Positions 1,474-3,304 of a DNA stretch of 5,248 nucleotides are shown here, in pieces. The stretch is from positions 1-5,248 of the forward strand of contig JALGWK010000173.1 of NCBI GenBank assembly GCA_025774205.1, given 5' to 3'. The notes beneath the pieces are model-generated. The model was not told the DNA's origin. It ran no database searches and worked only from the letters and a program-made list of their open reading frames with translations. Position numbers and translations under genes: made by a program. Numbering within the stretch: position 1 is the first letter of the stretch; each line of letters starts with the position of its first letter. The DNA comes from a bacterium (GTDB lineage: Bacteria > Blakebacterota > Blakebacteria > Blakebacterales > Blakebacteraceae).

Positions 1474-2568
1474 ATGGCCGCAGCCGTTACAGAGATCATC
1501 ACTGCCGCCTGGCAGATCCTGCTCGATTCCGCGCCGTTCGTGCTCTTCGGCTTCCTGGCGGCGGGGATCATCAAGGCCTTCGTGCCCGATGACATGGTGG
1601 CGCGTCACCTGGGAACGAAGAGTACCGGCTCGGTGCTCAAGGCCTCACTGCTGGGCGTCCCGCTGCCCCTCTGCTCCTGCAGTGTTCTGCCGACCGCCAT
1701 CAGTCTCCGGAAACAGGGCGCCGATAAGGGCGCTTCAGCAGCCTTCCTGGTCTCCACTCCCGAATCGGGTGTCGATTCCATTGCCATCACCTGGGCCCTG
1801 CTCGATCCCCTCATGACCGTGGCCCGTCCGATCGCCGCCTTCTTTACCGCCACGGTCACCGGTCTCTCGATCAACGCGCTTCCCGACGAGGTCACAGCCG
1901 GGCCGGGAGCTGACGCAGCGGAGGAAGATGAAGAGGAGGGCGAAGCGCCCGGCTATGGTTGCGGTTCTTCAGCCTGCGATTCGTCCGGTTCTGATGATAC
2001 CGTGGCGGAGGTATCGTTCTTCCGCCGTATGATGGCCGGGATCGCCTACGCCTTCGACGATCTGCTCAGCGAGATCGGCGGCTGGCTGCTGATCGGGCTG
2101 GCGGTCGCGGGCGTGATCACCTGGCTGCTGCCGGCCGACCTCTTTGCGGGACGGCCAGGCGGGGAGTTCACCTCGCTGCTGCTGATGCTGGTGGTAGGCA
2201 TACCCCTCTATATCTGCGCTACCGCCTCGACCCCGATTGCCGCGGCGCTCGTCCTGAAGGGGCTGTCACCCGGGGCGGCGCTGGTCTTTCTCCTGGCGGG
2301 ACCGGCCACCAACGCGGCGACCCTGACCGTGGTTCTCAAGCACTGGGGGCGGAAGGCTACGGTCGCCTATCTCGTTTCGATCTCCCTCTGCGCCCTCCTG
2401 CTCGGCTGGCTCCTCAATCGGATCTATGCCGCGGCTGGCCTCGATATCACGAGGTGGGTGCAGGCCCGGGAAGAGGGATCCGGCGGTCTCTTCGCGATCA
2501 TCTGTGCGGTAGTGCTCCTGGGCCTGATCGTGAGATGTCTGCTGCCGAAGCGGGCGCGAGCCTCCTGA
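1474..2568 (+). CDS. SO_0444/ArsP-type permease, probable metal (Cu/Zn) or metalloid efflux
   Basis: This is an integral inner-membrane permease of 364 residues, starting at ATG 1474 with an AGGGAGG ribosome-binding site at 1462-1468 (5-nt spacing). The hydrophobic N-terminal half contains the family hallmark PLPLCSCSVLPTA (Cys67, Cys69) and STPESGVDSIAITWALLDPLM (94-114). The C-terminal half repeats the pattern with PLYICATASTPIAAAL (244-259, Cys248) and LAGPATNAAT. Several transmembrane helices flank each motif. The two halves are joined by a hydrophilic loop (about 138-180) with an acidic run (EEDEEEGE) and a small Cys cluster (Cys163, Cys168), where relatives often carry metal-binding Cys/His residues. 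Members of this DUF318/ArsP_1 family are known or proposed to export arsenicals or Cu/Zn. The CSCS motif and metal-ligand-like loop favour the SO_0444 Cu/Zn branch, but the substrate cannot be fixed from sequence. It has no co-transcribed partner gene. Confidence 0.9.
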   Translation: MAAAVTEIITAAWQILLDSAPFVLFGFLAAGIIKAFVPDDMVARHLGTKSTGSVLKASLLGVPLPLCSCSVLPTAISLRKQGADKGASAAFLVSTPESGVDSIAITWALLDPLMTVARPIAAFFTATVTGLSINALPDEVTAGPGADAAEEDEEEGEAPGYGCGSSACDSSGSDDTVAEVSFFRRMMAGIAYAFDDLLSEIGGWLLIGLAVAGVITWLLPADLFAGRPGGEFTSLLLMLVVGIPLYICATASTPIAAALVLKGLSPGAALVFLLAGPATNAATLTVVLKHWGRKATVAYLVSISLCALLLGWLLNRIYAAAGLDITRWVQAREEGSGGLFAIICAVVLLGLIVRCLLPKRARAS

Positions 2569-2663: not shown

Positions 2664-2668
2664 GGAGG
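2664..2668 (+). promoter_or_regulatory. Ribosome-binding site that selects the GTG start
   Basis: GGAGG lies 6 nt upstream of the in-frame GTG at 2675. The in-frame ATG at 2690 would be 21 nt away and the ATG at 2670 is out of frame, so GTG 2675 is the best start. Confidence 0.6.
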
Positions 2669-2674
2669 CATGTC

Positions 2675-3304
2675 GTGATCGGTACCACCATGAAGAGAAG
2701 CGGTCTCATCCCGCTGGCTCTCATCCTTATCATATCTCTGCCTGTCATCTCCCAGGCCCAGGAGCAGCGCCGACCGCGGAGCGGGAGGGGGATGTTCGCG
2801 GAGTTCCCGGAGCGTGAGCCGAAGGTCGGTGAGATAGCACCCGACTTCACCCTGAAGACCCTCAATGACGAGACCTTCACGCTGAGTGAAGCGTACGAGC
2901 AGGGACCGGTCGTCATCGAATTCGGTTCCTTCACGTGACCTCCCTATCGACGGTTGGCAACCGTCGTCGAGGAGCAGCGGGAGAAATACGAAGGGAAAGT
3001 GACCTTCATCGTCCTCTATCAGCGGGAGGCGCATCCGGAGCAGATGCAGTTCGCGACGATCAAACAGCCGGAGACCTATGAGGAACGGCAAGCTCTGGCG
3101 CAGAGGACCTGCGATGAACTGACGGTGGCGACCACGATCGTCATTGATGGGATAGATAACGCCGTCCGTGAAACCTACGGGGGACTGCCGAACAGCGCCT
3201 ACATCATCGAGAAGGGCGGCAAGATTCTCCACAAGGAAGGCTGGGCGGCGCCCGACGGCTGGGATGAGATCCTCGACAAGCTGCTGGGCGGTGTAAGCCG
3301 GTAA
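2675..3304 (+). CDS. Iodothyronine deiodinase-like selenoprotein (in-frame TGA read as Sec), exported
   Basis: One frame is open from GTG 2675 to TAA 3302 (a second TAA follows) except for a TGA at 2936-2938. Read as selenocysteine it gives 209 residues with Sec at position 88. Residues 1-28 form a signal peptide or membrane anchor (MKRSGLIPLALILIISLPVISQA). A redoxin-type start follows (KVGEIAPDFTLKTL, 50-63), then VVIEFGSFT-U-PPYRRL, matching the FGSxTUPPF active site of deiodinases. Next come FIVLYQREAHPEQ (His120, matching the EAHPSDGW region), EERQALAQRTC (136-146), and a C-terminal thioredoxin-fold end (GGLPNSAYIIEKGGKILHKEGW). Deiodinases (Pfam T4_deiodinase) use Sec for reductive dehalogenation. 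Bacterial relatives are of unknown substrate, so a thiol/selenol redox role is equally possible. The position filled by Cys in DIO1/DIO3 is Phe here. The only Cys is Cys146. A SECIS-like hairpin follows the TGA. Automated callers will split this gene or call it a pseudogene. Confidence 0.85.
2936..2972 (+). promoter_or_regulatory. Bacterial SECIS-like stem-loop at the Sec codon
   Basis: Immediately 3' of the TGA, CCTC (2939-2942) can pair with GAGG (2969-2972). Above a small internal loop, CGACGGT (2948-2954) pairs perfectly with ACCGTCG (2960-2966). The apical loop is UGGCA, or GGC if one more pair forms. The loop starts 16-17 nt after the TGA and has G in its first two positions. This agrees with the known bacterial SECIS pattern (as in E. 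coli fdhF), recognised by SelB to deliver Sec-tRNA. The element is also translated as part of the protein. Confidence 0.75.

Follow-up and report, generated by a model that had tools for sequence, protein, structure and literature searches.

A predicted deiodinase-like selenoprotein encoded across an in-frame UGA codon in a Blakebacterota genome

The 5,248 nt stretch of DNA analyzed here, hereafter the window (contig JALGWK010000173.1 of assembly GCA_025774205.1), contains two apparent open reading frames, one ending at position 2938 and the other resuming at 2954. Do they form a single selenoprotein gene, and if so, what might its product do in a bacterium? The two ORFs share one frame, whose sole interruption between 2675 and 3304 on the forward strand is a TGA codon. 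The initial annotation, which had joined them into one protein by reading this TGA as selenocysteine (Sec), was correct in both coordinates and frame. The read-through product carries the segments FGSFT-U-PPY, QREAHP and EERQALAQRTC, and the GGAGG sequence upstream supports the GTG at 2675 as the start codon (Table 1). Standard gene calling would split this gene at the TGA codon. We consider it likely that the locus is a genuine selenoprotein gene for an exported deiodinase-like enzyme that works as proposed below.

Table 1. Positions of the deiodinase-like selenoprotein gene and its features in the window
Feature	Position	Strand	Description and basis
Ribosome-binding site GGAGG	2664..2668	+	6 nt 5′ of GTG 2675; from sequence
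Deiodinase-like selenoprotein gene, complete	2675..3304	+	GTG start, TAA stop at 3302-3304, 209 residues including one Sec; read-through translation
Predicted signal peptide MKRSGLIPLALILIISLPVISQA	2690..2758	+	Cleavage expected before Gln29; judged by eye
UGA codon, predicted Sec88	2936..2938	+	TGA in 20 other bacterial homologs at that codon, Cys codon in 6
Putative bacterial SECIS hairpin	2948..2966	+	8-bp stem 2948-2955/2959-2966, apical loop GGC 2956-2958; fold, pairing and compensatory changes
Glu118-Ala-His120	3026..3034	+	Matches Dio3 Glu200/His202 of the proposed proton relay; Glu and His in 29/29 rows
Pro132	3068..3070	+	His (Dio3 His219) at this place in deiodinases and most bacterial homologs; alignment
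Cys146, candidate resolving thiol	3110..3112	+	No other Cys in the protein; shared with L023 and L024 but not with paralog L025

Homologs were present in 14 of the 386 genomes searched. Sec/Cys pairs of the kind anticipated at residue 88 are seen among them: in an alignment of 27 bacterial rows including the window gene, the codon is TGA in 21 and a Cys codon in six. The TGA is found at the identical codon in orthologs from genomes G001 (75% identity) and G002 (67%) and in a second G001 copy, a 55% relative. Over the approximately 120 codons 3′ of the TGA, dN/dS was 0.13 against the ortholog L023 and 0.09 against the ortholog L024, which indicates purifying selection; synonymous sites are almost saturated (dS 0.9-2.3 between the window gene and related TGA genes). 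The region after the TGA resembles the region before it in both comparisons, and the differences are concentrated at the third codon position. Together with the hairpin, the Sec machinery and the TGA stops described below, these comparisons indicate that the TGA at 2936-2938 is almost certainly read as Sec.

Bacterial SECIS elements are recognized by an apical loop of 3-9 nt with a G in the first two positions, a stem of 4-16 bp, a distance of 16-37 nt after the UGA and an MFE of -7.5 kcal/mol or lower (PMC13188914). The window contains a hairpin, CGACGGTT-GGC-AACCGTCG, with a stem of 8 bp, a loop that starts with G and lies 17 nt past the UGA, and a local folding energy of -10.6 kcal/mol. Between orthologs the stem varies by paired substitutions (UU/AA to AA/UU and A-U to G-C). 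Among seven rows, which were picked after the hairpins had been seen, we counted 12 double-change cells against 3.8 expected, a number reached in none of 500 shuffles. Synonymous recoding of the window gene, L023 and L024 gave an equal number of pairs in 0.05-0.3% of trials, although the figure for the window is biased because the fixed stem was taken from it. In this fixed register the other Sec homologs have 2-8 of the 8 positions paired, because of loops that vary by a few nucleotides. The energy of the hairpin was not unusual for a GC-rich stretch when compared with dinucleotide shuffles (z = -0.93), so the case for a SECIS element rests on pairing and covariation. Separately, the homologs L047-L050 from Planctomycetota are Cys forms. 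In L047, a GGCG..CGCC stem is partly preserved where the SECIS would lie, which may be a trace of an earlier Sec codon.

The initial annotation had proposed selA, selB, selC and selD as a check on the Sec reading, and all four are found in the genome of the window. The tRNA-Sec gene (selC) was detected by both ARAGORN and Rfam, SelA lies on two contigs, and SelB is also present. SelD is likewise divided between two contigs, each piece scoring below the cut-off; its gene (L019, reverse strand of contig C412) has an in-frame TGA (CAGUASKLGP), which makes SelD itself a selenoprotein. SelB scored above the cut-off in eight of the nine other genomes with a TGA homolog, versus one of the four with a non-Sec homolog. 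The exception is G002, a 72%-complete genome in which neither SelA nor SelB was found. The homolog L038 has Asp at the Sec site (SLTDPMTAS), and its genome, G177, encodes SelA and SelB.

If the TGA were a real stop, the locus would reflect a recent nonsense mutation, a sequencing error or two separate ORFs. The TTG at 2954 is formally a possible restart codon, but the TGA recurs in separately assembled genomes, selection remains purifying downstream of it, and a confident predicted fold spans both halves, which makes a real stop very improbable. A genome-wide code change turning TGA into an ordinary amino acid codon is more improbable still: we found no point in its support, and it is contradicted by the neighboring permease gene and selA, for both of which TGA is the ordinary stop, by the single TGA across a 209-codon frame and by the dedicated tRNA-Sec.

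The read-through protein matched the Pfam family T4_deiodinase (PF00837) with 51.1 bits against a cut-off of 27 (E = 1.4e-13), and the joined frame places FGSFT-U-PPY where deiodinases have FGSCTUPPF, in agreement with the initial annotation on both counts. The top PDB matches by sequence were Dio2 and Dio3, the best being mouse Dio3 (E = 3e-12). An AlphaFold2 model built on an 18-row alignment has 149 residues with pLDDT of at least 90. When the model was compared with solved structures, mouse Dio2 ranked first (Z 21.3, 161 residues, 2.1 Å) and mouse Dio3 second (Z 20.5), followed by ResA, DsbE and AhpE (Z 17-19). The predicted fold is of the thioredoxin/peroxiredoxin-like type found in iodothyronine deiodinases, and Sec88 lies at the N-terminal end of its first core helix. 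In the phylogenetic tree, the window protein groups with L023 and L024 (support 96/90), and L025 is adjacent (94/93). Deeper forks are weak, so we draw no conclusion about the branching position of the animal enzymes. G001, which belongs to the same genus, has three deiodinase-like genes with TGA, L023, L025 and L027.

In 2005, Zhang et al. described bacterial deiodinase-like selenoproteins of the Sargasso Sea, some with Sec and others with Cys, and considered their function probably redox rather than hormone-related (PMC1088965); the 2008 GOS ocean survey reported such proteins again (PMC2398784). The initial annotation regarded a bacterial, exported member as little characterized; the bacterial family was already on record (PMC1088965, PMC2398784, PMC13188914). 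As such proteins have been catalogued since 2005, the window protein adds a modestly varied member to a known but uncharacterized kind. It shares with them the Pfam family, the Sec/Cys active site, the bacterial SECIS and the thioredoxin-like fold, and differs in its predicted signal peptide, in Pro for the second His and in the lone Cys146. Recent reviews give the motif UxxC for these proteins (PMC9312934, PMC13188914), which is not part of the Pfam definition; Dehalococcoidia members have UPPC, whereas the window clade has U-P-P-Y/F (U-P-P-Y in the window protein) and animals have UPPF. The NCBIfam model NF038285 (deiodinase family protein) gave 131 bits over its C-terminal half; this model is 347 long with a cut-off of 250, and the window protein is shorter and scores below it. 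The phylum of the window gene has only four genomes in the comparison set, and the family has animal relatives with no bacterial role assigned.

We then compared the active site with those of vertebrate deiodinases (Dio2, 9h48; Dio3, 4tr3). For these enzymes a proton relay next to Sec, made up of Ser, Thr, Tyr, Glu and a pair of His, has been proposed, with Dio3 His202, Phe258 and Arg275 giving the hormone site its shape (PMC11592359). Common to both are FGSxTUPP(F/Y), EAHP, a fold similarity of Z ~21 and the proposed relay residues Ser85, Thr87, Tyr115, Glu118 and His120. Dio3 His202 is thus retained as His120, whereas Pro132, Pro172 and Ala191 stand at the places of His219, Phe258 and Arg275. 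Nearly all bacterial rows have Pro in the Phe258 position, whereas loss of the second His is limited to a few clades, that of the window among them. In contrast to the vertebrate enzymes, the window protein lacks the proximal Cys, has a shorter insertion loop and a predicted cleavable signal peptide, and is encoded with a bacterial SECIS within the gene. The distal Cys is not at the same place either: in our own reading of the alignment, Dio3 Cys239 falls seven positions past Cys146. The initial annotation had placed REAHP and EERQALAQRTC in the conserved deiodinase order; both segments are present, but the Cys of QRTC is not the distal-Cys equivalent and the His of the segment is Pro132 here. 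Since the equivalents of His219, Phe258 and Arg275 are missing, thyroid hormone is not a likely substrate. A protein that keeps most of the proposed relay and not the hormone contacts would be useful for testing deiodinase-type Sec chemistry without thyroid hormone.

Read by eye, the first 28 residues look like a signal peptide: the start is charged, a hydrophobic core follows, and the small-x-Ala|Gln cleavage site recurs in L023, L024 and L025. This agrees with the export proposed by the initial annotation.

Sec coding, the Sec machinery, the fold and the active-site residues are well supported by computation, and a mechanism can be proposed from them. The ribosome would start at the GTG and, at the UGA, SelB bound to the downstream hairpin would deliver Sec-tRNA(Sec), so that translation could continue to the TAA. 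The signal peptide would direct the protein to the cell envelope, and Ser85, Thr87, Tyr115, Glu118 and His120 would surround Sec88 in the mature protein. As a selenolate, Sec88 may reduce a small oxidized or electrophilic substrate, such as a peroxide, presumably other than thyroid hormone, and Cys146 or an external thiol may then reduce the oxidized selenium. A selenol redox role in the envelope, either peroxidase- or reductase-like, is probable. The narrower assignment as a peroxidase with Cys146 as resolving thiol is possible and somewhat doubtful; this resolving step is the weakest, as L025, the 55% paralog, is devoid of the segment holding Cys146.

Two other functions could be envisaged for the same selenoprotein. 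A ResA/TlpA-like thiol-disulfide oxidoreductase, with disulfides of envelope proteins as its substrates, would accord with the signal peptide, with the cis-Pro-like Pro172 and with ResA, DsbE and CcmG-like proteins as the next best fold matches (Z 16-19). ResA/TlpA oxidoreductases and 1-Cys peroxiredoxins (AhpE and Bcp) share the fold (Z 17-19), and the ResA type is also located at the envelope. However, the CxxC (or UxxC/CxxU) active site is absent, the window clade having U-P-P-Y/F with no CxxC partner; Sec replaces Cys, the deiodinase EAHP segment is present, and deiodinases score higher by both sequence and structure. We therefore regard this function as unlikely.

A true reductive dehalogenase, in which Sec88 would strip iodine or bromine from aromatic compounds in the envelope much as deiodinases treat thyroid hormone, appears less likely again. 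Dio2 and Dio3 are the nearest solved relatives and the proposed relay keeps its Sec, Ser, Thr, Tyr, Glu and His, but three hormone-site residues of Dio3 are substituted, the insertion loop is shorter, and no halogen-related gene was seen in the neighborhood. It would be a long shot to propose an exported Blakebacterota clade whose deiodinase-like Sec site, helped by a resolving Cys at a new place, dehalogenates halogenated aromatics from the environment. If true, bacteria of a sparsely sampled phylum would carry out reactions akin to those of animal deiodinases.

We compared the neighborhoods of the window gene and its relatives and found no conserved neighbor hinting at a substrate. The upstream permease gene (1474-2568, forward strand) encodes an SO_0444 family Cu/Zn efflux transporter (NCBIfam, 421.6 bits against a cut-off of 300), which is also related to SaoE and has a Cys/Ser/Asp-rich loop. 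A conserved operon with this permease was rejected as a clue to function: in L045 the gene adjoins the TPR gene with no permease between, and the contig L044, of the same genus, begins too close to the gene to show the linkage. A link to the downstream M14 peptidase gene was also discarded, being retained in L044 only, across a gap of ~175 bases. Distant members are flanked by genes of the GFO/IDH/MocA, luciferase-like, FA desaturase, Rieske, ADH and beta-lactamase families with no common theme. Carriage by a phage or plasmid was not supported by the searches, which gave no phage records, no viral contigs and two weak plasmid matches, and the literature on ArsP or organomercury links offered nothing useful. 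In G001, L025 lies near a rubrerythrin gene. At the other end of the window, 50-725 on the reverse strand contains a probable outer-membrane barrel gene over two frames, with the signal peptide part at 480-725 and the C-terminal part in the other frame. This split suggests a frameshift near 480-515, due to either an assembly error or a pseudogene.
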